A DNA stretch of 64,000 bases from Isoetes taiwanensis (lineage: Eukaryota > Streptophyta > Lycopodiopsida > Isoetales > Isoetaceae). Shown here piece after piece: positions 1 to 47,762 of this stretch; the stretch's first letter is position 1; each line of letters opens with the position of its first letter. A program made the translations under genes and the position numbers. The stretch covers positions 2,180,896-2,244,895 of the forward strand of contig JAJEKV010000085.1 in NCBI GenBank assembly GCA_021234155.1, read 5' to 3'. The notes under the pieces are model-generated. The model made no database searches and was not told the origin of the DNA. It saw nothing but the letters and a program-made list of their open reading frames with translations.

Positions 1-790
1 AAAAGAAGGCGCAGCAAACATATTACTGTCCGGGTTAAAAAAACCCTGCCTCGAAGAATTTTCGGGGGAAAAACTATGACAGGAGTAAGAGTGTTATCAA
101 ACTGTACAGACATCTATCACGAGGAAAAATATACATATATCAGGCAAGCGCCCGAGGACTAAGCCGATCCCAGCGATCTATGACCTCGTGACAGAGGTCG
201 TGCTCAACATCACATGCAGTCGCTGGCGAGGCTAGGCCAGCTGAGCATAGAGTGTCCGAATTTCATCATATGTCGGGCAACTCTGAAGGGTGTGGCATTC
301 TTCTTCCACAGCTCCAACTTGGCAGCGTTGACAAAGCCTCTCCTGGCTTGGCTCCCCAATCCATCTTTCTGTCTCAATCTGGAGACGATGTGTGCCTGTG
401 CGGATGGTGGCAATGGATCTGTGCTTTTTCATGGGTAAATGGGTATGCAGATAGCGTTGCGGGCCCGCTCCAACAAGGGGTTTATCTGGTGTTGCTAATG
501 TGCCGTCTTGACATATTCAAAAGTATTGGCATCCTAGACTTGCTGAGAAAGCATGTATCAAGGTATTGTCTGATGCTGTCGCAATCTGCCTCTGTTTGCA
601 TTTGGATGCGCTTGTGCTCCTGCACATTCTGTCTAGCCAATCACTGAGATCTCTTTTCCTGCCAACATGCCTTTAGACGCTGGGGCCCCATTGCCATGGT
701 GTAAGCGAAGTAAGGGAGGCGAGCATCTTCCATACTTCCCACCTTCTGGAAGTAGATGATGTGTCGGTTAAGGGTCCCCCTCTGAAGATG
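1..790 (-). mobile_element. LINE 3' fragment (5'-truncated, runs off the window)
   Basis: This is the 3' part of a non-LTR retrotransposon read on the minus strand. The frame at 432-232 contains a C-X2-C...H-X4-C zinc-knuckle-like motif (RCQVGAVEEECHTLQSCP) typical of the C-terminal tail of LINE ORF2. The frame at 856-641 gives a segment around RHIIYFQKV and AMGPQRLKA that recurs, diverged, in the LINE copies at 16.0-16.7 kb and 9.3-9.7 kb. A copy of the hairpin core lies at 31-76. Several frameshifts and stops separate the frames, so it is dead. The left end, with the expected microsatellite tail, is outside the window. The 5' truncation point near 790 is judged from loss of similarity. Confidence 0.7.
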
Positions 791-1224: not shown

Positions 1225-4200
1225 AGAAGGAAGGAAGGAAGGAAGGTATTTTTATCGTCCACGGAGACCAATCGGTCTATGGGACCCAATACAAAAGCGC
1301 AACAAGCAGATTATTACCCGGATTAAAAAACCCCCGCCCCGAAGGGTTTTCGAGGGAAAAACCGTGGCAGCAATCAGCCTGCTGACAAACTGTTCCAATA
1401 TACGAAATGCAAAAACACACAAATATATACACTCATGTCATCGTGCCGTAGTGCACGGTCGGTGGCGGCGGTGAGGGGCAAAAGGTGAGCTCGCGATCCG
1501 GTACCTCACAGATATGCGACCACGAGCGCGTCTCGGCGGTGTGTTCATCAACAAATGTAGGGCACCGTCCGTACTGCATTAAAGAACATTCCGCACCTGG
1601 TCCGGACCAGATCTTTGAGCAACTCGAAAGTGTGAGACTCATCCTCAATGGCACCCGCTTGACGGCTTAGCCAGGCCAATCATGCGGGCTCGCTCCCAAT
1701 CCACCGCCTGCCTCACGAAGATGGTGACAGGCTGTCAGGCGAATGGAGGCAATGGGTAGTGGCTTTTCCAGGCGGTAGGACCTTGGTAAAGTCATGGCCC
1801 GACCAATCACCCGGGGGTTGATGTGCTCCTTGTAATGGGCCGCTTTGACCGCTCTAGAGTGTCGGGGTCCCAGAGCTTGCGAGGGAAGCAAGTGTCCAGT
1901 ACTCCCCAGTCTTGCCACGACCGGGCCCTCTGTGTCCACCTCCGCATCGTGCTCCTGCACATTCCATCGGCGAACCATTGATCTCTCTTACCCCTCAGCA
2001 ATTACGAGGCATGGCGGAGCCCATTGCCATAAAGCGTAAGCGAGTCGCGGGGCCAGCGAGCATCACCCATATTAACCACTTTCTAAAATAGGCGATATTG
2101 TCTATCAAGGCTGCCCGCTGAAGCGGCTTAAAGAATCAGTTTCCTGCAGCAGAAGTCGATACCAGGGGGACTGAAGGTTTCACCCAAGTGCCCGTGCCAA
2201 AAATGCCTTACGCACTGCTCCAAGTCATTCGAATTAAGCCAAAGGGCGGCCCGGACCCCAAACCGACCCGTCTGAGAAGGCTCTCGACCCGAGGCCCGGA
2301 GCAGATGTGGCCCATGGCCCCAATCATAGAGCTACGCCTGGTAGTGCATGGCATAAAAGCGCTTTCCGGCCTGGCTGTCGCAAGTGGATGAGCCTCCCAG
2401 CAGGCGAGGAGAAGTGCTCCAGCCCAGTGCTTGGTGGGAAGCGTGACCTCCACAGCTGTCCCCTCGATATGTGAGTGCAGGAGGCGTGGGGTGGCGTGAA
2501 GAGGATATGAGAACCACCGGTCTTGGCCGTATTCACGCGTATGTCTCTGGCAGTCGGGAGAATGTGTCTAGGGGCATCAGGATGAGGGAGAGATAGCTTA
2601 GGGTGTGGGCGAGGAAGGTCATTGATCGTCGCATAGATGAGCTGGTGGATGACACATTGCAAAAGCGGCCATGCCACCCCCCACATTCGGTAAGCCCGGG
2701 GCTCTAACCGGGTCAATGTAAAAAGGCCAAAAAAGTGTTGGTGAGAGGGGGCAGCCTGTGGGACCCCGATCTCACACGGTGAATGCTTGGCGAGTTTGGT
2801 GCATCTCCGCCAAAAACAACTCTCACATGGCTTTGTATATGGCATTACGCAGCGGCGGCAGCCCCGCTTGATGCAGTCCTAGCCCATAACTTTTCGGGGG
2901 ACCGTATCCAAAGCAACCTTCGAAGTCCACAAAGCGGCAATACAAGTCCCGCTTAGATGGTTTGGTATCTTCAATCGGTGGCGGAGTGTAAAGATATGGT
3001 CAATGGTGAGTGGCGGGGTCTAAAGCCCGCCAGGTGTGAGGGCTCGCGACATCCGCCGCCTCTGCCCGGGCCAATTGCCGCCGAGAATGCTAGCCAATAA
3101 TTTGGTAAATCTTTGACCCGACCATGATCGTCCGTGTGGTGGCGGACGGGTGCAGGGTCGCCCCGCCTTGTGAATGGGGACAACCCCCGCGTGGTCCATT
3201 GTCGGAAACCTTCCGCAATGCTTTCGTTGAGCGGGGGTAGTGAGGATCGGCACGAGGGCTGCCCCTGCCCATTTGAGTAACTTCGGCCTCGCATACCATC
3301 GAGGTCACCGCCTTCCCATTAGCCGGCCAAGTGCAGGCCCTCCACAACATCCTCCTCGCGAGAACCAATGGGAGGCCATCCTGAGGGGTGTGGGCGACGC
3401 TGGCGTCCACGGTGGGTCATAGAGCTCTTTTAAGTCTTGTTTCCCCTTTGCCGGGTGTGATGTCCCCGTAGAGGGCTGGGCTGGCCTTGAAGCACTCTGT
3501 GCCAAAGCGGTTCGAGGATATGAGCGGCCCCGGGCCGAACCTCCCCCGATGCCCGGCAAGGTACCGCGCCTTTGTCTCCTTTCGATAGGCTGTGATGTCT
3601 TGTGTGGGAAATTTGCAAGCGCACTGACTGGATCGAGAATGTGGAGCCGGTGGCTTGCGTTCTTTACGACCATCAAACCACCGATTCTTACGGAATGTTG
3701 CTGCCCCCGAAGCCACGCGGGGAGGGGGAGGGGAGGGTCCGCTAAAAGCACTCCGGTCCGGGCTGCATCCCGTAATAGCTCATTCAATACATCACCGGTT
3801 CGCTCTAGTGTGGGGGTCCGCGGTAATTGCCGCGGGGCATCCATGAGCATCTGGCGTAGTCCTACGCACGCTCATAATCGATGCGCCAAACCCAGGATGG
3901 CGGGGCCGCATAGTGGGGGTTACGGGCCCCCGCTAACCATGTCCAAATAAAGTGGAAGGGTGATTCGGAGTCGACCTCTCATCCCGACCGCTCTGGGCGG
4001 TGCCCTTCTAAACGACCATGAGATGCATATCTTGGCGCAACTACCACATAAGTGCACCACACTAGACCCTCCCCACGATTGTCCGTACTGCAGGTGCACT
4101 TTTGCGGTGAAGTGGGCCATCCGATGATCCATTGCAAATTGGCGAAGTCAAAAATGGCACATAGCGGGGAGCAACCATGCGCCCAAAGCTGACACGCTAT

Positions 4201-6274: not shown

Positions 6275-6470
6275 TTTTGGTGAGAGACTCGCCGATAGGC
6301 ATATCTTTCATCACAGCAGTGTACAACATTTTGAAAAAATATCTAAGGTGGAGGGTAATCCACCAATTGGGTCTGACTACCCACTAATAATACTAAAGGG
6401 GACCTGCCATAGGAACAACCCAGGCCCCTTTAAGATGGCGTAAAATAAGAAAGGCAAATAGGAGGCAACG

Positions 6471-6546
6471 TGCGAAAGTTTATCACCGGGATGAAAAACC
6501 CCGCCCCTTCGGGTTTTCGAAGAAAACCCTAATGATAAACCTTCGC
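6471..6546 (+). other. Structured hairpin module, copy C
   Basis: The outer stem pairs GCGAAaGTTTATCA (from 6472) with TGATAAACctTCGC (to 6546). The inner core at 6486-6530 holds AAAACCC, then GGGTTTTC, then GAAAACCC. The middle segment can pair with either neighbour, giving two exclusive hairpins. Copies H (47,684) and G (39,745) keep the core but have entirely different, still complementary, outer stems. Confidence 0.7.
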
Positions 6547-6894
6547 CCGACGGCTCCAAAGGAAAAGCCCGGGCCATCAAAGTGGAGATCATTGATGAAA
6601 AAGTCGAGGAAGCACAAGATGGAGGTCGCAAATCAGACGATGCATCTCAAACTCCATGGAAGAGCCGAACCAAAGAAAGAAATAGCCATGATCACTGAAA
6701 ATTTAGGAGAAAAGAAAACAAACAGAATGCATTAGACGTTAGAAAAGTAACGCAACAAAGTTGCCATAGGATGAGATGACCCGAAAAGAAACAACACAAA
6801 AAGAAGCAATTAACTCAAAAAATAGAAGCCATCATGCCGGCTCGGCGAAGCCTCCCAAGGGGGGCTGGTCCATGACAAATCACAATCCTCCAAT

Positions 6895-7050
6895 AAGAGA
6901 AGGGGCTGGTCACACAAGCCACGCGACATAAGAGCATATAAAAAATATAACCTCTCAAATACAGAGGGGCTGATCACGCGACATAACATCATATCTTAAA
7001 ACAGCATAACCTCTCAAATATAGAGGGGCTGGTCACGCGAGCCACGCGAA
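6895..7050 (+). repeat. Short tandem repeats inside copy C
   Basis: Three imperfect units of the form aggggctggtcacgcgagcc preceded by cctctcaaatacag. A diverged form on the opposite strand occurs inside copy G at 39,540-39,630 (cagcccctcac and aacaacccctcac), which helps show that C and G are the same family. Confidence 0.6.
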
Positions 7051-7620
7051 ATGGAATCACAAATCAAAATGAAAAACATGAATGCAAACAACTTAGGGTG
7101 GGGAGAGGGAACTAAGACCCAAGAAAAACTGCTATGAGAAGACGCCGATAATGGAGAAAGAGCCCAAAGACGTATATATAGCCTTGTCTCTCCCAAAATG
7201 GCGATCCGACGGTGTCGAATCGCATGCATTTTGGCGAGAGACTCGTCTGGAGGGGGGAAACCGACCAATCAAAAGAGAACTTCTATAAGATGATGATTGC
7301 CACTATAAAGTTGACATGTGTTGAATGAGCATCAAGAAAAAATCAATACCATGTCTAACAAATCAAAACTCCCAAATGTAATTGCCAAGATATGAAGATT
7401 GCTAAATGTATCAAAGTGGTTACGAAGGAAACCTGGGGGGAACTAGAAATTACTAAACCCTAGGAACAATTTGGAAATAGAAAGAAATCAAGGTAAACAA
7501 ATCTAAATGGCAACTAAACAAAAAAACACGCGGGACCAATAGTGGCAAATAGATAAAAGGAATAAGAAGTCATTTGTAAGGAAGTCGGTTGAATAAGAAA
7601 TCACTTTTAAAAGGTATGGT

Positions 7621-7690
7621 TGATTGGGAGACTCGAACCTTCACCATCAACATCCGAGTCAAAGCCTGTAACCACTAGGCTAAACCAAAT
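7621..7690 (-). repeat. tRNA-derived SINE head
   Basis: On the minus strand an A-box-like TTTAGCCTAGTGGTTACAG (7684-7666) is followed after about 25 bases by a B-box-like AAGGTTCGAGTCTCCC (7641-7626). Spacing and order fit an internal pol-III promoter. The sequence does not close a full tRNA cloverleaf, so a tRNA-derived SINE or tRNA pseudogene is more likely than a working tRNA. Confidence 0.5.
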
Positions 7691-8015
7691 ATAACTTTTA
7701 AAACACAAATCGAGATTTCATAAAACCGTCATATGCTGTGAATAGGTAACCGAACAAAAGGCGATAGAGAAAAGAGAGAACTCCGGAATGCTAAAAACGA
7801 AGAAGAAAAGAACGGGTAGAACAAATCCGATCACAAAATCAAACCAGAGGGAAGAAGAGCTATGCTTGATGATCAGAATTAGACTAGTAAGAGCGATTCA
7901 CAAAAGGAAGCAACCGATTTTTCCAAATAGACAGGTATGGGAGCAAAAGGGAAAAAATATTAAATAGCCAGAGATCGGTCCAAGGAAATCGCCGGTTAAT
8001 CATAGAATACTGAAA
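7691..8015. other. Intergenic, nothing recognised
   Basis: Purine-rich AT-biased DNA between the SINE head and the triple repeat. No open frame, splice pattern or repeat structure could be supported here. Confidence 0.5.
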
Positions 8016-8461
8016 GCGCTCAATCACATGAGAATTTGAGGCAGTACCTTCCAAGATCCCTGCATGCAAGCCAAAATTCGAGAGCCAAAGCAAGCAAGAA
8101 TCATTCATAAAACTGATAGATCCACAAATGTGTGCATGTAAAAGAAGCAAAGGAACGAAAACATGAATGAATCATGTGAGAATTTGATGCAATACCTTCA
8201 AGATCCATGCATGCAAGCAAAAATTTCATAGCCCAAGCGAGAATCATTCATAAAACGTATAGATCCACAAATTCGTGCATGCAAGAGACACAAAGGAACG
8301 AAAACATGAACGAATCACATGAGAATTTGATGCAGGATCTTCAAGATCCATGCATGCAAGTAAAAATTCCACAGCCAAAGTGCGCAAGAATGATTCCTAA
8401 AACTTACAGATCCACAATTTGGTGCATGCAAGAGAAGCAAAAGAATGAAAACATGAACTAA
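8016..8461 (+). repeat. Three tandem ~145-bp units
   Basis: The phrase gagaatttgatgca followed by ccttcaagatccatgcatgc and later cagatccacaa begins three successive units, at about 8030, 8178 and 8321, with spacings near 148 and 143 bases. Units differ at many sites, so the array is not young. It ends directly before the right-end module at 8475. Confidence 0.75.
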
Positions 8462-8474
8462 TAATCAATGCTTG

Positions 8475-8605
8475 GCCGACGACTAAGACCCAAGAAAAAC
8501 TGCTGTGAGAAGACGCCGATAATCGAGAAAGAGCCCAAAGACGTATATATAGCCTTGTCTCTCCCCAAAATGGCGATCCGACGGCGTCGAATCGCATGCA
8601 TTGTT
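8475..8605 (+). mobile_element. Right-end module of the hairpin element (solo copy)
   Basis: This copy matches the right end of copy C (7115-7229) almost base for base: aagacccaagaaaaactgct, gacgccgataat, cgtatatatagccttgtctc and gtcgaatcgcatgcatt. Similarity stops exactly after gcatgcatt, where copy C continues into its terminal direct repeat. The solo copy at 54,240-54,383 stops at the same place. Confidence 0.65.
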
Positions 8606-8846: not shown

Positions 8847-10458
8847 GAAGGAAGGAAGGAAGGAAGGAAGTTTATTTTAACGTCCACGGAGGCCAGAGGC
8901 CTATGAGAGCGGCAAGCGCGAGCAAAAAGCCAAAACCCCAACACCAAAACAAACAATGTAATCAGATAGAACCCTACTACACGGGATGAAAAAACCCCCA
9001 CTTGGGAGGAAAAACCCTAACGATGGGCTCTCAAATACCATGCCCCGGAAAAGAGCAAGTCGGCGGCGAAATCTGCCCGGGATGTAAGCTCCCGGTCCGG
9101 CTACCATAGGTGATCTTGATAATCGATGTAGCGGTGTGTCGAGCATCTAAGATCGAGTGTGCTTTGCTTTCGGACATGGGCATATCTTTGGGCGCATTTG
9201 GAGGGCATGGTGCTCATCCTCTATCACGTGCATCTCACAACAACGACATATCCTCTCCTCCCACGGAGATCCTGTGCCGCCATTCACCCCCAGCGACACA
9301 TCTCAGTTAGGGTAATGGGAACCCGTCCTTATGGCGGCAATAGCTCTCCGTTTCTTCACAGAGATGTGTGCTTTCAAGTACCGATGGGGTCCATGCTCAA
9401 GGCTGGGATTAATCTGAGCGTGATAGTGCTCTGTCTTGGGCTTTGCAAGAGTAGAGGCATCCCACAGAGTGGCAGCATAGCCCGCATCCAATTGCCCATT
9501 CTGCGCATCAGAATCTGCCAGTGCCACCATCTGTTGGTAATCCATAGACCACCTCCTAAACCATCCCTTACAGTGCTCGTGCCATACCCTCTTCAGCCGC
9601 TGGGGGCCCTGCGTTAACAACACGGCCTGTGGGGGCAAGCGATGCTCATCCATCCCATCCACCTTATGGAAGCAAGTAAGATGCCTTCGCATAGCAGAAT
9701 GCTGTAAAGGCCAGAACCCCGTCTCATACAACAAAATCGATGCGATGCGGTGTCCTTCACTCCCGGGCTATATGTCAAGAAAGCTTTACGCACCCTTTCC
9801 AACCTATCCCACGTATTTTGCTAACTATTTGGGCCCCAAACCTCCACCCCATATAGCGACACCGGCTCAACAAAGCTCTAAAGGGTGTGCTCTCCTCGCC
9901 CGATCCACGAGAGATCTATCCGGCAACACGCGTTTTGCACTGCATATAAAGCCTTCCAGCCTGCACTGGCTCTTCTCTCCACACACTCATCCCACAGCAT
10001 GTTAGTAGTGAAATCAATTCCCAGATACTTGAAGCTCCGCACCATCTCCACTTCCTGTCCCCTGTAATAGAACTCCGGGATAGGGTGTTGCGAGGACAGG
10101 ATCGCGAGAAGCTTAGTTTTGTGCAAGTTCACTGTCATTCCCGTTGCCCCACAGAACCCACTGAGGGCATCCAAATGCTGCTGCATACTGCTGGCCGTGT
10201 GAGCTAGCAAAGCTACATCATCCGCATATAGTAACTGGCTCACAGAGGTCGCATCAGATAATTGCACCCCGGCTCCCCCATGGTGCTGCATCCACGTCTC
10301 CAAGCTATCAATATACAACCCAAAAAGCGTTGGAGACAACGGGCAGCCCTGCTTAACTCCCATAGTGCTAGCTACCCGCCGATCCTCATAAGGCAGTGCA
10401 GCATAAATCCCATCATAAAGCTGGTGCACCACATTCTGCAACTCCGGTGCGATCACCA
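8847..10458 (-). mobile_element. 5'-truncated LINE with reverse transcriptase
   Basis: A minus-strand LINE copy with a (GGAA)n tail at 8847-8870. A long open frame from about 10,458 to 9,878 covers the reverse transcriptase palm: GVKQGCPLSPTLFGLYID, then LLYADDVALL with the catalytic YADD at 10,229-10,218, then YLGIDFTTNMLWDE. The C-terminal region continues after a frame change in 9734-9303. A reduced hairpin core lies at 8982-9020. Similarity to the family is lost upstream of VHQLYDGIYAALP near 10,458, the usual 5' truncation of LINEs. The RT part is the best preserved of this family in the window, but without an endonuclease it cannot be autonomous. Confidence 0.85.
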
Positions 10459-12887
10459 TAAACCAGATAACATCAGAATCAACTACAACATATATCAATA
10501 TCCTACCCAGCTCAGTCTCATGGGGATCGACTGATGTCTTGATCCTCCAGAGATCATTGCAGATAGAATTCATGGCAAATGGATTTGGCTGGCAAAGGAA
10601 CATGGTCATTGGGTAGTCCACACCATTTTCTCCTCTTGTGCACACTTTGCAGATATAAAAATATTTGCTATGTAGTCCATGCATTTGGGATTGTAAGTTG
10701 TAGGTATTCATGTCTACTACCAAATGCATTTTGAAGGTTGAGCTTCCATAGCTTTAGGAATTCTGAATATATGTGGAGCAAATGTGTTAACATATTTTCC
10801 CAAATATGAGATTTGCTTACCGTAGTTGGTTGGGTGTTTTTATGGGTGGTTTTTTAATTCACATACTCAAAAAAGCATGTGGGCGACACATGTGCTGCAC
10901 AGGTGCTGACTGCCCTTCATTGCCCTTCAAACTGCCCTTCATTGCCCTTCCATAGCCCTTCATTGCCCTTCAAAAAATCATGAGTGTTTTCTATTATATA
11001 AAGGATATAATGACCATATTAGTGATGCAAATCATGATGACATAAATTATTTGGTGAAGGTGCTTATATGTGCTGTGATGGTCAAAAAACTGGGTAGGTC
11101 AATTAAAAAGTTACCCTTATTTAGTTTGTGCTTTTGTTTTATGTTGATCTATACAACAGGAAAAATGCATGATGTTTGAAAGTTCTGATCCCAAGCTTTT
11201 GGAACAATATCTAGATGGTAGTTTTTTTTTCAAAAATATGGGGTGCACATGACTTGGCCTCAGTTAAAACTGGTCATCATCATGCACATATAAACCCCAC
11301 TTTGGCACCTGGAGCACAAGCTTATTTGCTTGCACAAAGAAGCTTGTAGCTATTGCATCAATACATTCAGGATCACACAAGCTATAAATTTGAAACATGT
11401 AGATGGGAGCGGCTGCAATCGCCATGCAAGGCAAAATTATGTACATCTAGCCAGCTATCAGTGACTGCAGATGAAAATTACACACTTCTAAGATATCCTG
11501 CTTTTGTGATGATTAATAATTGTTCTTTTGACATTAGCATTACATTCTATGCTTCCACAACTTCTCAGAGCATGATTTGTGTATAACTTGGCATTATACA
11601 TTCTTGAGGTATTAAATACGCCTCTTTAATTGATGAGCCAACATTGTACAAATTGATTTATCATTGATTGCCTAGTATCATCTTAATGCAAAGTTTTTTT
11701 GGAAACCTTTCGGGGCACGGGTTTTTTCATCCTAATAGTAATGGTTGTACTAGGCCATCGTATGGATCGCATGGCCTATTGGCATTCTTGGATGTTAAAG
11801 AATTTATTTTTATTCCTTATTTGGGTAAATCATTTCTTATTCGGGACTTTTGATTGCAACCTCAACATATATCAGTGTTCTTCATTGATTTGGATTTAAT
11901 TCAATTAAATGTAACGTATAAACCCAAGTGCAAATTCCCATCAATCTTTAGGCCATTGCGGTCAAGATTGTATACAAAAAGTTGGCCCAAATAATAATTA
12001 TACAGCATGAATGATCCACCACCAATGGGCTCTACATTGTATGGCAGCAAGTAAACTCAGGAGCTGATTCTAGGGGGTCCCCCGGCCGGCAATAGCCGGG
12101 AGCGTGTCCCGGAATCTGCGACTGAGTTTGCTGCCACCACAGCATGGTACTGGATCTGGAGTTTGAGATTACCTGCTGATTACCTCTTGAGCAGAATCAG
12201 CCCACTATTTTCCATTCCGGAGGCAGAACGACCGATCCAATTTCCATGTTGTAAAGAAGATGGTCACACGATACAGTGTGGAACATTGCCTTGCGAATAG
12301 AGAAATGTCTATAGAAGTTTAAGTTATTTCTTAGGTGTCCAATGGTGTCCAATGTCATATACACATTGGTGATCAGCCCATAAAATTATGTAATTTCTTT
12401 TGTATTATATCTATTTTTAGAGGTGGCTAAGGTGGCTTTCCATTTATCAGCAAGCCATTGGTTGTTACCAAGTACAAATGTTCAACTTCAATCTTCCAAC
12501 CATTGGTCTTCAATAGCACATAAAAAGGGAAAGTCGACCTAGACAATGATGATATGGTATGAATGATCTCACACCAAAATTACGAATTGAACCAAGTGGG
12601 CCATAGTAGGAATAGAAAAATGACTAGGTGTAAGTTAGTAGAAGGTGAGAATCTTAATGTCTTGAGTGGCGTCCACTATCATAAACACATGCACTGAAAA
12701 GATGAGAAGATAACTTGCATGTCAAAGGATAGGTCTTGACAAAATGTATGCCTATGCCCTTTTTTGAATTACATATATTTTTTGGGGTGGCTAATGTGTC
12801 GTTCCATTTGCCGGCCAGTCGCGCCATCCCATTGGCTCCATATCTCATAAATCAATACAACCTATGCTATAGATATGAAATCAACGA
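10459..12887. other. Intergenic and upstream DNA
   Basis: No gene is supported. A small minisatellite lies at 10,910-10,972. A weak minus-strand match to the hairpin core (ggatgaaaaaacccgtgccc) lies around 11,745-11,700. The part at 12,296-12,480 resembles 12,609-12,830, suggesting an old duplication of the region upstream of the secreted-protein gene. A GC-rich stretch at 12,070-12,120 contains a small inverted repeat (cccggccggcaatagccggg). Confidence 0.45.
10910..10972 (+). repeat. TGCCCTTCAT minisatellite
   Basis: About five imperfect units of tgcccttcattgcccttcaa, short and interrupted. Confidence 0.7.
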
Positions 12888-15499: not shown

Positions 15500-16780
15500 A
15501 ATAGAATAGAATAGAATATAATATAATTTTATCGCCCACGAGACCAACCGCCTATGGGACCCAAGTACAAAGAGAGAGCAAATGCAGCGATTACTACCGT
15601 GATTAAAAACCCCTCAAGGGTTTTCGGGAAAACCTTAGTAGCAATAAGGATGCCGACATACCGCATAGCTTATATACATAATCACAAGTACAACCGAGGT
15701 TAATGCCTGGACATGGGGCATAATCGAAGTCCGCTGTATCCATTACCTCCCCGGAGGTACGATCCCAACAAGCCTACAGAGGCCCGTGCTCGAGCTCATG
15801 CAAGGCCCGATGGGGCATTAACTAACTCGAGCATACCGAGCCCCGATATGCTCATATCGCGGACAAGCCTGGAGGGCGGACTTTCATCCTCAATGGCTCG
15901 CTGACAAAGACCGGATGCACTCGCCCTCACGCTGCCCCCGAATCCATCTCCATGTCTCAATGCGGAGGTGGTGTGCACTGTCTTAATGGAAGCAATCACC
16001 CCGCTTTTTCATGGGTAGATGGGTGCGCAGTAGTGGTGTGGGCCCCACGCGAGCATGGGATTAACCCGGCATATAATTTGCCACCTTGACATGTGACAGG
16101 GCCTCTCGCGATCCCAAAGCTTGGCCATGAAGCAAGCATCCAAATATCGCTTCAAGGCAACGCTGCTTTCCTTCGGTGTATGCACCGGTCCACATCCGTG
16201 TGCCTCGCACATTCCATAGCGAACCACCGGGCTTGCTTGTCTTTCCAAAGAAGCTTTGAGTCGCCAAGGGCCCATCGCCATCGACAAAGCAAGGTTGGGC
16301 AGTAGGGCTTCATCCATAGCCACCACCTTCCGGAAGTAAATAATGTGACGCTCCAAATACACCTCAGAATGGAAGGAAGCCTGCCTCCCCGGAGCAAGAT
16401 CCGATATGGGACCGTGGATTTCACTCCCAAAGGCTCCGGCCAAGAAGGCCTTCTCAGACTGCTCTAGATCGCTCCAAGTGGTGAGGGATATCACCGCCCC
16501 CCACACCCCATAGAGGAGGACCGGTTCAACCAAGGCCCTCGAACAAGTGTGCCCAGTGACCCCATGCATACTGACTCTACCTTGTGGATCGTTGTTTTGC
16601 ATTGCATACGGGGCTTTCCGACTGCGGTGACCCGTAACTCGATGGATGCATCCCAATGTGTGGTAGTAGAAAACTCAATGCCCAAATACTTATATGACTG
16701 AGCCACCTCCACTACCTGCCCCTGGTAAGTGAATGAGGGAAGGCGTGGGTGCCGGGATGATAGAGAATGTGGCACGTCAA
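15500..16780 (-). mobile_element. 5'-truncated LINE with AGAAT tail
   Basis: A minus-strand LINE 3' region. The tail at 15,500-15,525 is (AGAAT)n rather than (GGAA)n, but the next bases (atcgcccacgagaccaaccg) match the other copies. The hairpin core is at 15,598-15,635. The frame at 16,775-16,491 gives YLGIEFSTTTHWDASIELR, the same position as YLGIDFTTNMLWDE in the copy at 10 kb. The frame at 16,656-16,009 covers the C-terminal region with RHIIYFRKV and AMGPWRLKA. It is truncated just downstream of the RT active site, so it is non-functional. Confidence 0.75.
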
Positions 16781-24238: not shown

Positions 24239-24390
24239 AAGGAAGGAAGGAAGGAAGGAAGGAAGGAAGGTATTTTTATCGTCCACGGAGACCAATCGGT
24301 CTATGGGACCCAATACAAAAGCGCAGCAAGCGGATTACTACCCGGATTAAAAAACCCCTGCCCCGAAGGGTTTTCGAGAGAAAAACCGTG
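24239..24390 (-). repeat. LINE 3'-end fragment with GGAA tail
   Basis: Seven to eight GGAA units at 24,239-24,270 are followed by the conserved 3'-end block (atcgtccacggagaccaatc, then ctatgggacc) and the hairpin core at 24,342-24,386. Similarity ends at aaaaaccgtgg, where the L1-type LINE region starts. It is nearly identical to 1225-1370, so these two 3' ends are close relatives. Confidence 0.75.
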
Positions 24391-24399
24391 GGGGGGTTT

Positions 24400-27300
24400 A
24401 GATATAGACACGGGGTTGGCAAAGCCCACATATCCTGGGATGCTAGGGTCAATCTTGCACCCGCCTTGATGAATGTAAGTGGGAACAAGAAGATGAACAA
24501 AAAAGGAGATGGAAACAATTCCAAGGTCATGATTTGCGGTAGGGGTAATCCCAAGGTCAAGGCTAGACAGATAGTTATGCTGAGTGGGGATAGGTGCGAT
24601 ACGGGAGCAGGGAAAGGGAGGGTATGGATCCGTACTTTCTTGGTGTGCATGGGGATTTGATGTGGAACAATAATAATGAAAATAGTCTCGTGGAATTAAG
24701 GGTGTGCTGAAAAGGGCCAGAGTTCTTACAGCTATAAGATCTATGAATGCTGACCTCTTACCCGTGCAGCTAGAGGTACCAAAGGGGGGACAGGAATTTT
24801 ATGGAGAGGGCTAACAAGCAATCTTCAACATGTGGGGACTAACGGGAGGTGGCAGGTAGTACAATTTGAAACAAATGAAATCCATTGGGATTGATTAACG
24901 TATATGCCACCAACAAGCCTGCAGAAAGAGCTATGCTATGGAGAGAAATAAACACGTGGCTAGTCAGCCAACCAGGGGAAAATTGGATTTTAGGAGGTGA
25001 CCTCAACATGACGGATTGATTAGGAACCTCTTAGAGGAAGAGAGGGTAGCATGGGATTCCCTTTTCAATAACAATGGATTTATCCTTCTCCCACTATCGA
25101 ATACCCCATACTCTTGGTCAAAATAAGCAGAAGGGTATGGACAGAGTCTACTGCCTCTTGGATAGGTTCTATTTAGCCAAAAAGTCGGCCCCGTTCATGG
25201 ATAAGTGTTTTGTGGAAGGGGATCTTGCTTTCTCGCAGTCTGACCACGTGCCACAAAAACTAGTATTTGAGGAGCTTCCCACTGCAAGAAGAAGGGGCAA
25301 TGTTCCCCTTAAATTCAATACTGGTCTCTTAGGAAAGGAAGCATTCTGCATTCCCTTTAGGGAATTTATTACGACACAACCAAGGTAAGATGAGCTCCCT
25401 ACTATGAAAGCATGGATTAAAAAAAGTGCACTAATGAAGGATTGGATAAAGAAATGGGGCAGAGAGCGGGCCCAGGAATTACGAAGATCTAAAGTCGATC
25501 TTTATGATCAAATCCGATTTGACCCATTTAACTCTGCATATCAGAATCTTGAGGAAGAATTAAGCACCAAAGTTAAAGCAATAGAGGAAGAAGAAGCACG
25601 TGGGGCAGCCATGAGATCTAGGACTAAGTGGTACGCTGAAGTGGTTCATGAAAGCTCTAAATATTTTTTTAGATTGGCTGGATCCAGGTTGGCTGAGAAC
25701 AGCATTACTTCGGTAATTGATGACCAGCATCAAGTCATAAAAGGTGAAGCCAAAATAAGATCATTTTTCAGAAATAGCTACAAGGGGCTTTTTAAAAAAG
25801 ATCCTCTTCCAAACGATTATCCCTCCCAATGCTCAAAGTGGATATCTTCCATCCGTTAAGATCTTTCGATAAATGCTGACGAGAACAGACTATTGCTTCA
25901 GGAACCAGGTGATGCAAAAATCTATAAGGCGCTAAGTTCTCTAGCCTCTGGAAAATTCCTAGGGCCAGATGGGTTCCCACCAAAGTTCAATGTGGAATTT
26001 TGGGATATCTTGGGTCCCTTCTTTGCCGTTGCAGTTAAAGGAGCCTGGGCTGTTAGATATCTCCATCCAACCTTGGCAGCTGGATTCATTGCACTCATTC
26101 CAAAAGTAAGTAGGCCTCAGGCTATCAATGAATGGAGACCGATAGCATTGACCAATGTTTTGTACAAAGTAATCATGAAAGTAATAGCTGCCCGAATTAA
26201 GCCAATCTTGGATCGTGTAATAGGGTATGAGCAATCAGCATTTCTTCCAAATAGAAACATCTTGGAAATTACTTGGCTGCCAGGAGGGGCTTCATTGGTG
26301 TAGGCACTCAAGCCAGAAGTGTGTCTTGCTTAAACTTGACTTTCGTGAGCCTATGACTCACTCAGATGGTGTGGATTAGAGGCTTTTATGGCACAAATGG
26401 GTTTTGAAATGAACTTCATAAATCTAGTCATGGGGTTGAATAAGATGGCATCTGCATCAGTGCTATTGGATGGCCAGCCCTCTGGTCTCTTTGACCTCGG
26501 TAAAGGAATTAGACAGGGCTGCCCCCTCACCCCATACTTATTTCTGATCATGGCAAACGTTCTAACTTGCATGGTGAAGGATTTGGAGGTAAAAGGTACA
26601 TTAAATGGCTTAACTCTCCCTGGATCAGACAGAAGGTTGATAATAATGCAGTATGCGGATGATACTTTCCTTTTCTTAAGATATGATGATGAGAGCTTCG
26701 AAGCCTTTCAGGATGCATTGGGTTCCTTCTTCTCTATTGCTGGAATAGGAATCAACCCAGCCTTATATGGCCTTTTGATGGGGCTGCTAATGCCAGGGTT
26801 AGAGCATGGAACTATCATGTAGTAGCCACCTCAGAGACTATAAAGCTTCTAGGAATGCCTCTTAATCTAGCAGATAATATAAAAGGGCTATGGTCTCCTA
26901 TCGTAGAAAAGATCCGAAAAAAGGTCAATCTATGGTCCTGTAAAGCTTTCTCAACAATGGGACGAGTGACAGTAGCAAATGCAATCCTCAATGCCACACA
27001 TATCTACCATATCTACTATTCCTCGACAATAGTGGCACAAAAGTACGTATATGACCAGATTTTGGTTATTATCCGTAAGTTCATATGGGGGAAAAAAGCG
27101 AAGGTGGCATGGTCAGAAATGTGTCGAGACAGAAAGGATGGGGGTTTAGGATGTAAAGACTCAATGATTCAGGCAAAAGCGCTAGCGGCTAAGTTTGTTT
27201 GGCGGGCAATTCAGAAGGATAGATCACCGGCAACTGACATAGTGAGATTTTGGCTTCAACAAGGCAAAATAAGAGGCAAAGAGACTGCGTCCCTCTTCTA

Positions 27301-39280: not shown

Positions 39281-40032
39281 ATGTTGTTATTTCATGTGAG
39301 TTGCATCATGAGAATACCAATCAATCCACGTAGCAGATCGAGATTCTCTTGCAAGACAAGCATGCATGCATTGCATGCGTCGCATGCATTTTTTGGCCGC
39401 TCATTCGGTTGAGAGATCACTATTTCTTCCAGGTTTCTTCATCAGCTTCTCATCGGCGCTTTCTCATCTCTCAACAGTGTCCCTTGTTTTCCTCCGTCCC
39501 TCCCATAATTTTGTTATTTATATAATGTTATATGTTAAATATTATTGCGTGGCACGCATGATCAGCCCCTCACATTTTCGAAGTTTGGTGGCATGGCTCG
39601 CCTGAACAACCCCTCACTTTTTCGAAGTTTTTATTTTACTCTATTGTGTTTTTTATGCTGGTGATGTGCAGGTGCAGGGGTGATGCGCAACTTTGGCGGG
39701 TCTTTTTGAGAACGTTTAGCAGCCTTGAGTTGTTCAAGCTTCTTGCTGAGAGCTTATCGCTAGGGGTTTTCCTCGAAAACTCGAAAGGGCGAGGTTTCTT
39801 AATCCCGGCGATAAGCTCTCGGCAGGTACAATAGCCAACATCTGTAGAAAACAATTTTATTTTTGGGGTCCAGGTGTTATAACTGGATATTCCCTGTGTT
39901 TTTTCATTGTTTTGGGTAGCTTGCGATGTGCAGCTACCCACTCTTTATCATTGTAGACACACTGCTGAGATGAATGAAAATCCTATCTATTTATGTGATG
40001 ACGTTGTTTCATGCAAGTCGCATCACGAGAAT
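39281..40032 (-). mobile_element. Direct-terminal-repeat hairpin element, copy G
   Basis: Read on the minus strand this has the order seen in copies C and H: a left end near 39,990-39,960 (ttcattcatctcagcag, cf. cattcatcacagcag), the hairpin at 39,823-39,745, internal gaggggctgatcatgcg units, a right module with gcgccgat near 39,450, and a right end gacgcatgcaatgcatgc near 39,370. Direct repeats flank it: tttcatgtgagttgcatcat with gagaat at 39,291-39,316, and tttcatgcaagtcgcatcac with gagaat at 40,008-40,032. They resemble each other more than the termini of copies C and H. It is the most diverged of the three. Confidence 0.5.
39745..39823 (-). other. Structured hairpin module, copy G
   Basis: GCTGAGAGCTTATCGC (39,745-39,760) pairs with GCGATAAGCTCTCGGC (39,808-39,823): 15 Watson-Crick pairs plus one G-U. 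The core between them is the minus-strand form of the shared core. The outer stem has no sequence likeness to copies C or H. Confidence 0.7.
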
Positions 40033-42313: not shown

Positions 42314-42864
42314 TGTTAGCAGTTGTCAGAAATTATCATATATGTAATAGGGGTTTCTACAGGGAAGATTACATGAAGATCAAACAACTTACAAGCCTAC
42401 AGGAGCCAAGGTATTTTGAAGACAAAGATTCAACCTAAGGTATGTCATTGTGTGAAGATTATTTCTTAATGCATGTTAATTCCAATGGTTCGATTGAGCC
42501 AATTTTCTACCTCACGAATGTGGGATAAACATGCAAACTTTTGGAGGGAACTAGGCCGACCGATCCGGCACCGAATTCCATTTCTAGATGCTTGCCGTTC
42601 GGATCTTGACTTCATAAGAAGAATGAAAAAAGGAAATGAGTAAGGAGGTCGAAGGTTCTTCAATTGTGCCGCAGATTTAATGGAGTATTTAGTCTTGTAA
42701 AGTGCAAGTGAAGTTCGTTGGTTTCATTGTTATCTAAGACTATTGAACCATTGAAAGATAAGGTTATTTAAATGTTCATTTGAATGCTCACGTTTGGGGG
42801 GGTATTGTCAATTGACCATAAGGTTTCATTTGTGATCTAACATCTAAGTTTTGAAATACTCACA
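42314..42864 (+). repeat. Copia 5' LTR (551 bp)
   Basis: Starts TGTTAGCAG and ends CTCACA. Compared with the 3' LTR there are three base substitutions and one replaced segment: 31 bases (tatgtcattgtgtgaagatt...) here against 11 bases (ttcaacctaag) there. Apart from that segment divergence is about 0.6 percent, indicating a recent insertion. Confidence 0.92.
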
Positions 42865-42866
42865 TT

Positions 42867-42878
42867 TGGTATCAGAGC
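42867..42878 (+). promoter_or_regulatory. Primer-binding site
   Basis: TGGTATCAGAGC starts two bases after the 5' LTR. It is the standard plant Copia primer site, complementary to the initiator methionine tRNA 3' end. Confidence 0.92.
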
Positions 42879-42884
42879 AGGAAC

Positions 42885-45800
42885 ATGGCCAGTAGATTTG
42901 GGGCAAATCTGCTTAGCACAGTAGATGTTTATACAGGAGGACCTGGTTTCCAAGTTTGGAAGGATGCAATTAAACACATCCTAGAAGTGGAAGAATTATG
43001 GGATCTGGTTGATCCAAATGGAGGAACATTTGCACAAACTGGTGCAGAAAGTAGCACACCTGCAAGGTCTGCTACTGGAGGTGGTAATGCAACACAATCT
43101 TATGCTGTGGCTGCAGGTTCTGGGAGCTCAGGGAGCACATCATCTGGGGCAACGTCTCATACAGTGAGCAGTGGTGCAGGTGCTGGCAGAACCATCTATG
43201 CTAGGACAAAGGAGGCTCAAGGGATCATCACCTGCAAGGTTAGTCCCACCATTAGATTGAAGTTAAGAAATATGAGTCCTAAGGAAATGTGGAAGTTTCT
43301 TCTCAAACATTATGAAGAGAAGAGTTCTTCTCAAATAGACCTCTTAGAAAATGAATTGAGGAGTCTCAAACTGAAAGAAGAAGTTTCAAAGTTTTTCAAT
43401 ACCTTTGATAATATAGTTGCAGACCTCAGTGGAGCAGGAGTAAGTCTAACTGAAAGGTATCAAGTGCTTGCAATTGCTAGGTCTATTGGAGATAATGAAC
43501 AGCTGGCTATGTTTATTAGAAACATGGCCAAAACCAGAGAGGAGGCAGAAAACATTATAAGAACAGAGATTGAGCAAAAGAAAATGTTAAAGGGAGAAGA
43601 TGCTGAAGCATCTGAAATTTTGTTTGCTGGGAAGAAAAGAGGAGAAAAGGGAGTTTGCTTTCACTGTCATGAGCCAGGTCACTACAAAAATAATTGCCCC
43701 AAATTGAATAAAGAATTCAATTGCTATACTTGTGGAGGCAAGGGGCACATAGCTGCAAAGTGTCCTACACCAAAGGATTATAACAAAAATAAAGGAACTG
43801 GTAGTTCAAACAAAGGAAGATCAAATTTTAAGGGTCGAGGTGGGAAGAAACCTGCTGGCACATATGTAGCCAAAGAATCTGAAAAGGAGGAATCAGAGGA
43901 TGAAGATGAGGTAAAATTTGCTTTTGCAATCCTTGACAAAAGAGAAACTAATCACAAGTCTGATGTACTTGTAGTTGATAGTGGAGCTGAAAGATCAGTA
44001 GTTCAATCTACTGATCTTCTCAAGAACTTTGGAGGCACACACTCAAGGAATATCCAAGTTGGAAATGGGGAACTCCAACATATTGAAGGAAAAGGACTGC
44101 TACAGCTAACAGACCTGCAGGGGCAAATAGTGGATATTGAAAATGTCCTGTGTGTTCCAACCATTATCAAAAATCTTATTTCTGTCAGTCAATTAGTAGA
44201 CCTTGGCTATAGAATCACTTTTGATTCAAAAGGATGTAACATCTTTCTTGGAAATGAATTAAAGTTTTTTGCAAAACGTGTTGGAAACTTGTTCCAAATG
44301 AATAATATGCAATGTGATATTATTAATGATGTGCATGACTCTGAAACTGAAATGTGGCACAGCAGACTAGCACACACTCATTGCAGCAATATTAACTCCA
44401 TGGCTAAAAAAGGATGGCTTGAATGCAAAGAAACCAATCCAGACAAGTTTGTTTGTGAAGGATGCATGCTAGGGAAGCTGAATAGACTTCCTTTTCACAG
44501 GAGGAAAAAGAGGGCAAATGAACCATTAGAATTAATACACACGGATCTATGTGGACCTATGAACATCAGAGGGAGAACAAACAAAAGGTATTTTATATCC
44601 TTCATAGATGACTTCAGCAGATATTGCAAAGTTTACTGTTTGGAAAAAAAGTCTCAGGCTCTTATTGCTTTTAAACAATATGTCAGTGAAGTTGAAAGAG
44701 AATCAGGGAAAAAGGTAAAATGTGTAAGATCTGACAGAGGAGGGGAATACCTCTCAACTAAATTCAAATTGTATTGCATTGCAAATGGAATTAAAAGACA
44801 GATGACATGTAGGTACAGCCCACAACAGAATGGAGTTGCTGAACGAAAAAATAGAACAGTGATGGATGCTGTGAGGTCCATGATCAAACACTCTGGCTTG
44901 CCTAACTATCTCTGGGAAGAAGCCCTCAAAGCAGCTATCATGATTCAAAATAAACTTCCTACATCTAGCCTAAAGGGAAATACTCCAGAGATTCTATGGT
45001 CAAATGTTAAAGATAAACCAGATTTCAGTATGCTCAAAGCCTATGGTTGTTTAACCTATGTGCATGTGCCTATAGAGCTAAGGAAGAAGTTAGATGACAA
45101 AGCTCAAATTGGATACTTGGTGGGATATGACAGTGAATCAAAAGGGTACAGAATTTTTATTCCAGAAAATAAGACTGTAATAATAAGCAGAGATGTGTTT
45201 TTTAAGGAGGATGTACTTTATAAGGACAGGAATGTCATCAAAACAAATACATCTAAGGAAAGCATAAATGATACTTCAGGAAAAACATCACAATCAACAA
45301 GCTATGATTCAGATGAGGAGGACAAGAATAATGATTCAAGTCAGAATGAAGATGGAAAACCTCAAAGCAGTTTAGAGCACAGCAGTACAGAAATTATTCC
45401 ACCTAAAAGGAGGAAGACACAAGCAGAAAAACTTCTAGAAGAAGCTGGAATAGATACAAAAGCATATGGAAGGGATGATGTTGGCAGAAGCAAAAGGCTG
45501 GACAGAATTGAAACAGAAGATGTTGAGGAGGAAATTGAGCAAATCATGGCAATTCTTGAAGATGAAAAGATTCCACAAACTTATGAGGAAGTGTTGATTT
45601 CTGCAGATAGAGATAAATGGTTGGATGCAATTGAGAAGGAATTAAATTCCTTCAAAACCACTGAAACATATGAAACAGGAGATCTACCTAATGGTAAAAC
45701 TGCTATAGGCAGTAAATGGATCTTTAAAATTAAAACATGTGCAGATGGCAGCCATAAATATAAGGCCAGGTTGGTGGCAAAGGGGTTCACTCAAAGAAAA

Positions 45801-47120
45801 GGAAGAGATTTTGATGAAACCTATTCTCCAATAGTCAAATTGACAAGTGTAATACTGTTATTAGCTTTGGCAACTGCTTGGAACCTAGAATTACATCATA
45901 TGGATGTAAAAACAGCTTTCTTAAATGCCAAATTAGAAGAAGACATTTATATGAAGCCACCTGCTGGAATTGAAGTTGAGAACAACAAAATATGGAAGTT
46001 AAAACGTGATGTGTATGGTCTAAAACAAGCACCTAGAGAATGGTATCACTGCATAGACAATTTCCTCAGGGAGCAGGGTTTTGAGAAACTTAAGAATGAT
46101 GGGAACTTGTACATTTTTAGGGATGAATCCAAATATTGCATTATAGCTCTCTATGTGGATGATTGCATCATGAGTGCAAATTGTTTAGATGTGCTAAACC
46201 ATTGCAAAAACATGTTGAAGAAAAGGTTTCACATGACTGATCTTGGGGAACTACAGAAATTTTTGGGTATAGAAGTAGTTAGAAACAGGGACAAACATGA
46301 ACTATGTCTGAAACAAAGCCAGCACATAGAGAATATGTTAACAAGGTTCAACCTATCTGAAGCTAATGTTGTGCAGACTCCCATGGTACCAGGGCACAAA
46401 TTGACAGCTGATACAGAGATGACTGAATCAGAGATTAAAGAAATGGAAGATATACCTTACAGGGCCCTCATAGGTTGTCTTTTGTATTTATCAAATAATA
46501 CTCGGCCAGATATAACTTATGCTGTGAACATCTTAAGCAGAAGATGTCATAATCCTAGCAAAACTCATTGGATAGCAGGGAAAAGAATCCTAAGGTATCT
46601 GAAAGGCACTAAAGATTTTGGAATAAAATTTGACAGCTCAAACTTGACATTGGAAGCCTATAGTGATGCTGACTGGGCAGGGGACCTAAGCATGAGAAAA
46701 TCAACCTCAGGGTATGTCATTTTTTTAGCAGGAGGACCTATATCTTGGAGAACAAAGAAACAAAATGCCATAGCAATGTCTTCTGCAGAAGCAGAATACT
46801 CAGCAGCCTCTCTAGCATCCAAAGAAGTGGTTTGGCTCAGAAGACTTCTGGAAGAACTCAGGTGTGTTCAAAATGAACCAACTAAAATTCTGACTGACAG
46901 CCAAAGTTGTATGGCAATTGTAAAAAACCCAGTTGACCATGAAAGGACCAAGCACATAGAATTATCTATACATTTTATCAGGGACCTAGCCAGCAAGAAA
47001 TACATTCAAATGGAATATGTCAACACCTCAGATCAAGTGGCAGACGTCTTTACTAAAGCTCTGACTGAAAACAAGTTTACAAAGTTCAGGGATTGTTTAA
47101 ATGTTTGGACAGCAGCTTAA
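42885..47120 (+). CDS. Intact Copia Gag-Pol polyprotein, 1411 residues
   Basis: One uninterrupted frame holds all parts of a Copia polyprotein. Gag spans about residues 1-330 with two CCHC knuckles, CFHCHEPGHYKNNC (258-271) and CYTCGGKGHIAAKC (280-293). Aspartic protease has DSG at 365-367. The GAG-pre-integrase zinc region covers about 490-530 (WHSRLAH...CEGC). The integrase D-D-E residues are D553 (HTD), D617 (SDRGGEY) and E653 (NGVAE). Reverse transcriptase has YVDD at 1090-1093. RNase H has SDADW at 1260-1264, AEAEY at 1301-1305 and TDSQS at 1337-1341. A Gly/Ser/Ala/Thr-rich stretch at 54-101 interrupts the N-terminal Gag, which is unusual. The start is the first ATG after the primer site. 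No frameshift separates Gag from Pol. With matching LTRs, primer site, polypurine tract and target duplication, the element may be able to transpose. Confidence 0.95.
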   Translation: MASRFGANLLSTVDVYTGGPGFQVWKDAIKHILEVEELWDLVDPNGGTFAQTGAESSTPARSATGGGNATQSYAVAAGSGSSGSTSSGATSHTVSSGAGAGRTIYARTKEAQGIITCKVSPTIRLKLRNMSPKEMWKFLLKHYEEKSSSQIDLLENELRSLKLKEEVSKFFNTFDNIVADLSGAGVSLTERYQVLAIARSIGDNEQLAMFIRNMAKTREEAENIIRTEIEQKKMLKGEDAEASEILFAGKKRGEKGVCFHCHEPGHYKNNCPKLNKEFNCYTCGGKGHIAAKCPTPKDYNKNKGTGSSNKGRSNFKGRGGKKPAGTYVAKESEKEESEDEDEVKFAFAILDKRETNHKSDVLVVDSGAERSVVQSTDLLKNFGGTHSRNIQVGNGELQHIEGKGLLQLTDLQGQIVDIENVLCVPTIIKNLISVSQLVDLGYRITFDSKGCNIFLGNELKFFAKRVGNLFQMNNMQCDIINDVHDSETEMWHSRLAHTHCSNINSMAKKGWLECKETNPDKFVCEGCMLGKLNRLPFHRRKKRANEPLELIHTDLCGPMNIRGRTNKRYFISFIDDFSRYCKVYCLEKKSQALIAFKQYVSEVERESGKKVKCVRSDRGGEYLSTKFKLYCIANGIKRQMTCRYSPQQNGVAERKNRTVMDAVRSMIKHSGLPNYLWEEALKAAIMIQNKLPTSSLKGNTPEILWSNVKDKPDFSMLKAYGCLTYVHVPIELRKKLDDKAQIGYLVGYDSESKGYRIFIPENKTVIISRDVFFKEDVLYKDRNVIKTNTSKESINDTSGKTSQSTSYDSDEEDKNNDSSQNEDGKPQSSLEHSSTEIIPPKRRKTQAEKLLEEAGIDTKAYGRDDVGRSKRLDRIETEDVEEEIEQIMAILEDEKIPQTYEEVLISADRDKWLDAIEKELNSFKTTETYETGDLPNGKTAIGSKWIFKIKTCADGSHKYKARLVAKGFTQRKGRDFDETYSPIVKLTSVILLLALATAWNLELHHMDVKTAFLNAKLEEDIYMKPPAGIEVENNKIWKLKRDVYGLKQAPREWYHCIDNFLREQGFEKLKNDGNLYIFRDESKYCIIALYVDDCIMSANCLDVLNHCKNMLKKRFHMTDLGELQKFLGIEVVRNRDKHELCLKQSQHIENMLTRFNLSEANVVQTPMVPGHKLTADTEMTESEIKEMEDIPYRALIGCLLYLSNNTRPDITYAVNILSRRCHNPSKTHWIAGKRILRYLKGTKDFGIKFDSSNLTLEAYSDADWAGDLSMRKSTSGYVIFLAGGPISWRTKKQNAIAMSSAEAEYSAASLASKEVVWLRRLLEELRCVQNEPTKILTDSQSCMAIVKNPVDHERTKHIELSIHFIRDLASKKYIQMEYVNTSDQVADVFTKALTENKFTKFRDCLNVWTAA

Positions 47121-47141
47121 ATGTCATATTACATATATGAT

Positions 47142-47151
47142 AAAGGAGGAA
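47142..47151 (+). promoter_or_regulatory. Polypurine tract
   Basis: AAAGGAGGAA lies immediately before the TG of the 3' LTR, where plus-strand synthesis is primed. Confidence 0.88.
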
Positions 47152-47682
47152 TGTTAGCAGTTGTCAGAAATTATCATATATGTAATAGGGGTTTCTACAG
47201 GGAAGATTACATGAAGATCAAACAACTTACAAGCCTACAGGAGCCAAGGTATTTTGAAGACAAAGATTCAACCTAAGGTTCAACCTAAGCATGTTAATTC
47301 CAATGGTTCGATTGAGCCAATTTTCTACCTCACGAATGTGGGATAAACATGCAAACTTTTGGAGGGAACTAGGCCGACCGATCCGGCACCGAATTCCATT
47401 TCTGGATGCTTGCCGTTCGGATCTTGACTTCATAAGAAGAATGAAAAAAGGAAATGAGTAAGGAGGTCGAAGGTTCTTCAATTGTGCCGCAGATTTAATG
47501 GAGTATTTAGTCTTGTAAAGTGCAAGTGAAGTTCGTTGGTTTCATTGTTATCTAAGACTATTGAACTATTGAAAGATAAGGTTATTTAAATGTTCATTTG
47601 AATCCTCACGTTTGGGGGGGTATTGTCAATTGACCATAAGGTTTCATTTGTGATCTAACATCTAAGTTTTGAAATACTCACA
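47152..47682 (+). repeat. Copia 3' LTR (531 bp)
   Basis: Same ends as the 5' LTR. The duplicated phrase caacctaaggttcaacctaa here replaces a longer segment of the 5' LTR, a length difference of 20 bases. Confidence 0.92.
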
Positions 47683-47683
47683 G

Positions 47684-47762
47684 TGGCGACAACTTCTCAT
47701 TGGGATGAAAAACCCCGCCATTTCGGGTTTTCGAGGAAAACCCTAATGAGAAATGGTCGCCA
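47684..47762 (+). other. Structured hairpin module, copy H, disrupted at its base
   Basis: TGGCGAC (47,684-47,690) pairs with GTCGCCA (47,756-47,762), and TTCTCATT pairs with AATGAGAA inside it. The core at 47,702-47,744 again has AAAACCCC, GGGTTTTC and GAAAACCC. Copia's target duplication GTGGC overlaps the foot of this stem, so the insertion point lies in the 5' strand of the hairpin base. Confidence 0.7.

Follow-up and report, generated by a model that had tools for sequence, protein, structure and literature searches.

Elements for nuclear expression (ENEs) such as those of MALAT1 and PAN belong to cellular or viral long noncoding RNAs, where the U-rich internal loop of a stem-loop takes up an A-rich tract (PMC11411715, PMC12846552). 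U-rich internal loops have also been described in plant transposon transcripts (Tycowski 2016, as cited in PMC12501189 and PMC12846552). In the Arabidopsis element Evade (Copia93), the ENE lies in the spacer between the open reading frame (ORF) and the long terminal repeat (LTR), its triplex in vitro depends on the U tracts and on adjacent G-C pairs, and its loss leads to lower RNA stability and fewer new insertions (PMC12501189). Here we describe a recurrent hairpin from the lycophyte Isoetes taiwanensis, a quillwort, found in a stretch of 64,000 nucleotides (assembly GCA_021234155.1, contig JAJEKV010000085.1, positions 2,180,896 to 2,244,895 of the forward strand; the whole stretch is called the window below). 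We read this hairpin, with a probability of roughly 0.68, as an ENE-kind RNA element of transposon transcripts that clamps an A-rich tract.

In the hairpin near position 6471 and its relatives, an outer stem with a GG/CC clamp encloses a run of four to six U, the short C/G stem P2 and another run of five or six U; four A and a small hairpin (P3) lie inside (Table 1). An earlier description of the window from its letters (the original prediction) had presented this core as a bistable hairpin, whose middle segment can pair with either neighbour, and had known of no described plant element with such a design. That statement was too strong, since plant transposon ENEs are known (PMC12501189; Tycowski 2016, as cited there), and on the RNA strand of the carriers the core resembles a U-rich internal loop more than a bistable hairpin.

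The quillwort hairpin resembles the Evade ENE in being a stem-loop with a U-rich internal loop and G-C pairs nearby, and in a copia element (locus L111) it appears to occupy the corresponding spacer, after the ORF and before the 3' LTR, as does a hairpin of other sequence in locus L112. Evade has four U-rich tracts, read as two internal loops, whereas the quillwort hairpin has two U runs and one loop; unlike Evade, it also carries AAAACC inside and has a spacer ahead of the lower clamp. The plant and fungal transposon ENEs of Tycowski 2016 likewise include U-rich internal loops in plant transcripts, while most of 100 genomic places sampled here cluster with a repeat whose terminal inverted repeats (TIRs) are asymmetric, or with 3' ends like those of long interspersed nuclear elements (LINEs). 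With MALAT1 and PAN the hairpin would share the uptake of an A-rich tract by such a loop, in transposon rather than long noncoding RNAs. To our knowledge, the ENEs of MALAT1 and PAN have no internal A4. Double-domain ENEs have two U-rich internal loops; this feature was absent by eye from 36 aligned copies, which have one loop formed by two U runs. No report of ENEs in LINEs or in lycophytes was found in a survey of part of the literature, and Tycowski 2016 may include some.

In the mechanism that we propose, the outer stem and its clamp would hold the two U runs face to face under a cap made of P2 and P3. In a U.A-U triple helix the runs would grip an A-rich tract, either the poly(A) tail or the few A found where LINEs end 3', which would slow deadenylation and so raise the level of transposon RNA, and the module would be common to LINEs, copia elements and the asymmetric-TIR repeat. 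The hairpins have the architecture described, covary in their outer stems and lie 3' of coding homology to LINEs and copia elements; by analogy with known ENEs, they may form the triple helix, protect the tail and favour mobility.

Abundance and covariation of the outer stem

The assembly searched comprises 1,658,258,908 bases in 1,110 contigs. A strict pattern, GGTTTTN{14,44}GGTTTTTHATCC, matched 4,019 places in it, compared with 99 for the reversed control. The first 100 matches by contig order (contigs C1-C73, not a random choice) were fetched with 260 bases per side and are referred to below as the sampled places; every row was kept for the flank clustering with its arm swap, for the inner-segment folding and for the count of arm pairs. 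The pattern imposed GGTTTT, GGTTTTTHATCC and the distance between them, and thus the U runs (four to six and five or six U in these places) and the HAU that follows the second. Thirty of the sampled places and six window copies, hand-picked for diversity, make up a 36-row alignment, in which MAFFT puts some P2 and P3 columns wrong. The structure tested on it was drawn from one row (L009), which in itself gives it an advantage over slid versions. A stretch of 141 bases about the 6471 hairpin recurs in at least 40 copies at 96-100% identity, counting the window copy (40 were scored of 1,182 candidates). Because the assembly was built from Nanopore and Illumina reads (PMC8566536), the lengths of U and A runs in single copies may be uncertain.

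The outer stem changes in sequence while its pairing persists. In 93 of the 100 sampled places, arms of 20 nt with the clamp gave 12 pairs or more, compared with 39% when arms were shuffled. The mean energy was -16.4 kcal/mol for own arms and -8.3 kcal/mol for arms swapped between flank clusters, with 73 places of 100 in the best 5%; the swap was weak for the LINE-like set alone (mean percentile 0.34). In the 36-row alignment, 15 of 19 pairs of the outer helix had double-sided changes. The covariation score of the whole 27-pair structure was 0.426, falling to 0.116-0.152 when the structure was slid by 1-3 columns, and 160 cells were double-changed (69 shuffled, 43-59 slid). A cruder measure, the number of pairs with any double change, gave 19 versus 16.2 shuffled and 13-18 slid, a value reached by 16 of 500 shuffles. 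These results support the selection on structure that the original prediction had proposed, above all for the outer stem. Its outer stems of unrelated sequence are indeed complementary, but many of them are diverged relatives with compensatory changes and not wholly unrelated.

RNA folding of window copies gave z scores (two strands) of -5.1/-5.4 at 6471, -4.6/-5.1 at 47,684, -2.2/-3.5 at 39,745 (where the stretch tested had lost 10 bases of one outer arm), -2.0/-2.3 at 15,598 and +0.4/-1.1 at 1318 (not significant). Single-stranded DNA folded about as well (z -4.6 to -6.7 for two copies on both strands); folding alone therefore does not separate RNA from DNA.

Orientation and carriers

The core was present at all eight sites named in the original prediction (31, 1318, 6486, 8982 in reduced form, 15,598, 24,342, 39,761 and 47,702). 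A covariance model trained on the 36 copies matched nine window places (E 8e-19 to 5e-5, with matches taken at E up to 1). Of two sites that had been called weak, it recovered the one near 11,700 but not the one near 57,690. The copies at 10-97, 8961 and 11672 were outside the training set, but their genomic relatives were inside. At eight of the ten named places AAAACCC leads on the plus strand, which puts the U-rich strand on the minus; 39,761 and 11,700 are opposite, and only the reversal of the former had been pointed out before. For the window copies at 31, 8982 and 15,598, LINE homology is found upstream when the minus strand is read, and the hairpin of copia L111 is oriented as pol, which is why we read the hairpin as GGUUUU...UUUUU(A/C)AUCC RNA.

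Clustering of the flanks assigned 53 of the sampled places to the asymmetric-TIR repeat and 40 to LINE-like 3' ends, a set that includes one probable chance match (L059). Three small further carrier groups (L014/L049, L015/L088 and L067) are of undefined class. In LINEs, by eye, the hairpin lies in the 3' untranslated region (UTR); TGGGTCCCAT... and GGACG(T/A)TAAAA come next, and then a tail of (CTATT)n or (CCTTC)n. The sequence 3' of it includes a TAAAA(A)n run ahead of the microsatellite tail; in the asymmetric-TIR repeat a poly(A)-signal-like sequence is seen by eye downstream. When LINE-type 3' ends were collected independently of the hairpin, from the fetched loci longer than 3 kb, four of seven had it and three did not. 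One end without it, at window position 55180 (minus strand), keeps the flanking bases and by eye looks like a local loss. Two LINE-type ends without the hairpin (L106 at 8994 and L109 at 8346, both on the minus strand) are joined to other upstream sequence, and are possibly repeats similar to short interspersed nuclear elements that share the LINE tail.

The pol homology of copia L111 stops at 5735 (E 1e-115 by tblastn, covering residues 907-1417 of the 1421 in the query) and the core starts 48 nt on, at 5783, with a polypurine tract and an LTR-like start 3' of it by eye. The related copia L112 (71% identity over 176 nt upstream) has homology ending at 5750 and, 70 nt on at 5820, a hairpin U6 / CCUUUU...AAAAGG / U6 with a different outer stem and without AAAACC. 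The copia element L012 and the LINE-type L047 match at 78% of 100 aligned positions around the hairpin, which suggests that the module has moved between element classes. A separate copia element in the window (42314-47682, plus strand) has a single ORF of 1421 amino acids and LTRs 95% identical, and ends beside the hairpin at 47681.

The asymmetric-TIR repeat is about 0.6-2.5 kb long. Besides the inverted repeats that give it its name, it has a 5' hairpin and internal junctions at which an element end meets an element start. The L105 and L106 copies are 97.8% identical over 2,487 nt and those of L109 and L106 97% over 613 nt, while L105 and L109 have in common, at the search settings used, the hairpin only (74 nt, 93%). 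Head-to-tail end/start junctions were seen at 4262-4421 in L105, at 4569-4608 in L107 (reverse-complement coordinates) and at 7111-7244 in the window; they look like those of rolling-circle tandem copies, with the class of the repeat not established. Judged by eye, its probable sense strand is the one with intron-like ends, a start resembling a TATA box and 3' sequence resembling a poly(A) signal. A tblastn search of the repeat bodies with four window proteins (Replitron, copia, LINE reverse transcriptase and LINE C-terminus) gave no coding match; an autonomous partner was not sought.

The inner core

Unguided RNAalifold on the 36 copies returned 12 pairs, eight in the outer stem and four in P2, and paired neither the U runs nor the A run. 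Directly 3' of U run 1, CC is found in 97 of 100 sampled places, although the pattern did not demand it; this fits P2, whereas bistable hairpins do not need CC. The first two P2 pairs are C-G in 31/36 and 31/34 rows, and the GG/CC clamp is G-C in 34/36 and 30/33 scored rows, with an AAU or CAU spacer between U run 2 and CC. When the ends of P2 were swapped between copies, own ends were slightly better (-5.15 versus -4.84 kcal/mol; 10 of 2000 permutations were equally good), a small effect. By regular expression the P3 loop is GAAA in 33 and UUCG in 7 of the 100 places, with 19 unparsed.

AAACC is found in 93 and AAAACC in 82 of the 100 sampled places. Since the pattern did not require it, the middle segment is constrained. 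It is nevertheless dispensable, as minimal forms show. With a pattern that leaves no room for AAAACC, P2 and P3 together, 254 places matched, compared with 71 for its reversed control; judged by that control, more than one in four of these places may have matched by chance. Many of the 100 short matches listed are of the type seen at 8982 (CCTCCCAAGTGGGGG and near variants, the U runs being required by the pattern), and by eye five of these 100 have an AAAA run, two of them as AAAACC.

Several points speak against an ENE. The near-invariant A4 is unaccounted for by a plain ENE. The consensus energy from RNAalifold is small (-4.36 kcal/mol), the minimum fold pairs the ends in 42 of 81 distinct inner segments (a mixed outcome of simple folding), and covariation is weak in P2 and P3 (2/5 and 2/3 pairs, few cells). 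For 97 of the sampled places (three without an AAA run were excluded), folding without a tail gave no dominant state: the probability of pairing with the A run exceeded 0.5 for U run 1 in 37, for U run 2 in 33 and for neither in 27, and the state with open U runs lay on average 3.2 kcal/mol above the free minimum. Folding strength is about equal on both strands. LINE copies terminate in (CTATT)n or (CCTTC)n, not in poly(A). The U runs of the sampled copies were imposed by the search pattern; the copy at 8982, which came from the original prediction, has them with no pattern requiring it. The spacer between U run 2 and the CC clamp is AAU in 70 places, CAU in 10 and AU after a longer U run in 20 (HAU being part of the pattern), and we know of no standard ENE with a spacer at this position. 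Finally, in Rfam (ribozymes or other families) the window and eight of the 100 sampled loci had matches below the gathering score only.

Alternative explanations

The conserved A run could be accommodated within a clamp if the A tract were built in. AAAACC would then pair with U run 2 and take U run 1 into the groove, forming a self-contained U.A-U triplex, or would shut the clamp until poly(A) displaces it, and this module would have spread among LINEs, copia and a DNA-type repeat. We regard this version as doubtful.

A switch without any role for poly(A), in which U run 1 and U run 2 compete for AAAACC and the competition is itself the function, appears rather unlikely. Both hairpins can form, as the original prediction had noted: the GGUUUU/AAAACC pairs are possible in 94.4% and the AAAACCC/GGGUUUU pairs in 92.8% of alignment cells. 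The retention of AAACC independently of the pattern and the nearly even split of the computed ensembles also agree with a switch, and the middle segment can still pair to either side. However, double-changed cells in the two hairpins number 2 and 0; since both are nearly invariant, covariation hardly tests either. The unguided consensus did not select the switch but opened both U runs and paired the C run with the G run. Moreover, the 8982-type copies and the hairpin of the copia element L055/L112 keep the U runs, the C/G stem and the outer stem and lose the AAAACCC, and the CC after U run 1 is left unaccounted for. Bistability as the essential design is therefore not established.

The proximity of the hairpin to LINE 3' ends would fit a recognition signal for the LINE reverse transcriptase in target-primed reverse transcription, later borrowed by other repeats. 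We consider this improbable, because three of the seven LINE-type ends lack the hairpin (one by what seems a local loss) and because it is also found in copia elements, which bypass that route, and in repeats without LINE-tail ends.

Hardly any weight is left for a hairpin acting as DNA, recognized by an HUH or rolling-circle transposase such as that of the abundant Replitrons. Replitron HUH genes do exist in the window and the genome, one carrier group has tandem end/start junctions, and single-stranded DNA folds well, but in L105 the hairpin sits inside the element, some 240 nt away from its end, and a location 3' of LINE and copia coding homology points to RNA. Nor is an inserted foldback element resembling miniature inverted-repeat transposable elements, or a chance palindrome, at all likely, in spite of several unrelated flanks: the core is constant while the arms vary by carrier (the reverse of a foldback transposon), the arms covary, and the site is the same within each carrier family in the copies looked at. 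An ENE-kind clamp for an A-rich tract is thus the reading that we prefer.

Other features of the window

An ORF at 58900-59844 (minus strand) encodes an HUH endonuclease domain of Replitrons (PF21859, E 2e-19). All 150 scored candidates (of 2165 from a first look) matched in this genome, and none did in 14 control genomes; Replitrons have been reported from lycophytes (PMC10741241). As a candidate for the Replitron terminal structure, the hairpin was rejected, the covariance model matching none of four Replitron loci (L001-L004, about 3.4 kb each). A separate long hairpin seen by eye near 57960-58040 is possibly a Replitron end. The window also contains a long GC-rich inverted repeat at 60867-60933, with weak similarity to mir-3926 far under the Rfam cut-off, an open frame of 879 codons with pentatricopeptide repeats at 61095-63734 (minus strand), and a tandem duplication of about 1 kb (92-95% identity) at 50400-52308.

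Table 1. Parts of the hairpin near 6471 (in RNA sense), its other copies in the window and its carrier repeat.
Feature	Position	Strand	Evidence
Whole hairpin under study	6467-6550	-	Covariance model E 8e-19, training-set member; fold z -5.4 on this strand (6466-6551)
Outer stem, 5' arm	6529-6546	-	Sequence, fold, alignment
GG clamp	6527-6528	-	Sequence
U run 1, 3' of GG clamp	6523-6526	-	Read from sequence
P2, 5' side (CUUCG)	6518-6522	-	Read from sequence; consensus fold
Internal A4 (A part of the middle segment)	6514-6517	-	Read from sequence
P3 mini-hairpin (CCC-GAAG-GGG)	6504-6513	-	Read from sequence; 77.9% of alignment cells paired
P2, 3' side (CGGGG)	6499-6503	-	Sequence; consensus fold
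U run 2	6494-6498	-	Read from sequence
CAU spacer, then CC clamp	6491-6493, 6489-6490	-	Read from sequence
Outer stem, 3' arm	6472-6488	-	Sequence, fold, alignment
Asymmetric-TIR carrier repeat, internal end/start junction near 7244	6275-8602 (approximate)	-	Sequence comparison
Copy downstream of LINE C-terminal homology (539-772)	10-97	-	Covariance model E 3e-8
Copy before LINE 3' end (end motif at 1287)	1298-1385	-	Covariance model E 1.5e-16, training-set member
Minimal copy without AAAACCC, LINE 3' UTR	8961-9038	-	Covariance model E 1e-5; LINE reverse transcriptase and C-terminal homology upstream
Weak copy	11672-11754	+	Covariance model E 5e-5
Copy in LINE 3' UTR	15580-15656	-	Covariance model, LINE homology
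Copy before LINE 3' end; outer 5' arm looks replaced (by eye)	24322-24409	-	Covariance model
Copy in asymmetric-TIR repeat	39742-39827	+	Covariance model
Copy in asymmetric-TIR repeat, cut just past the hairpin by a copia LTR ending at about 47682	47681-47764	-	Covariance model

Implications

If the hairpin is an ENE-kind element, a single portable RNA stability module would be carried by three unrelated kinds of transposon within one plant lineage, in thousands of copies. Transposon ENEs would then extend to LINEs and to a DNA-type repeat in a lycophyte. The copies with and without the internal A tract, all with a single loop, would also offer a natural series from which the minimal requirements of a poly(A) clamp may be learned.
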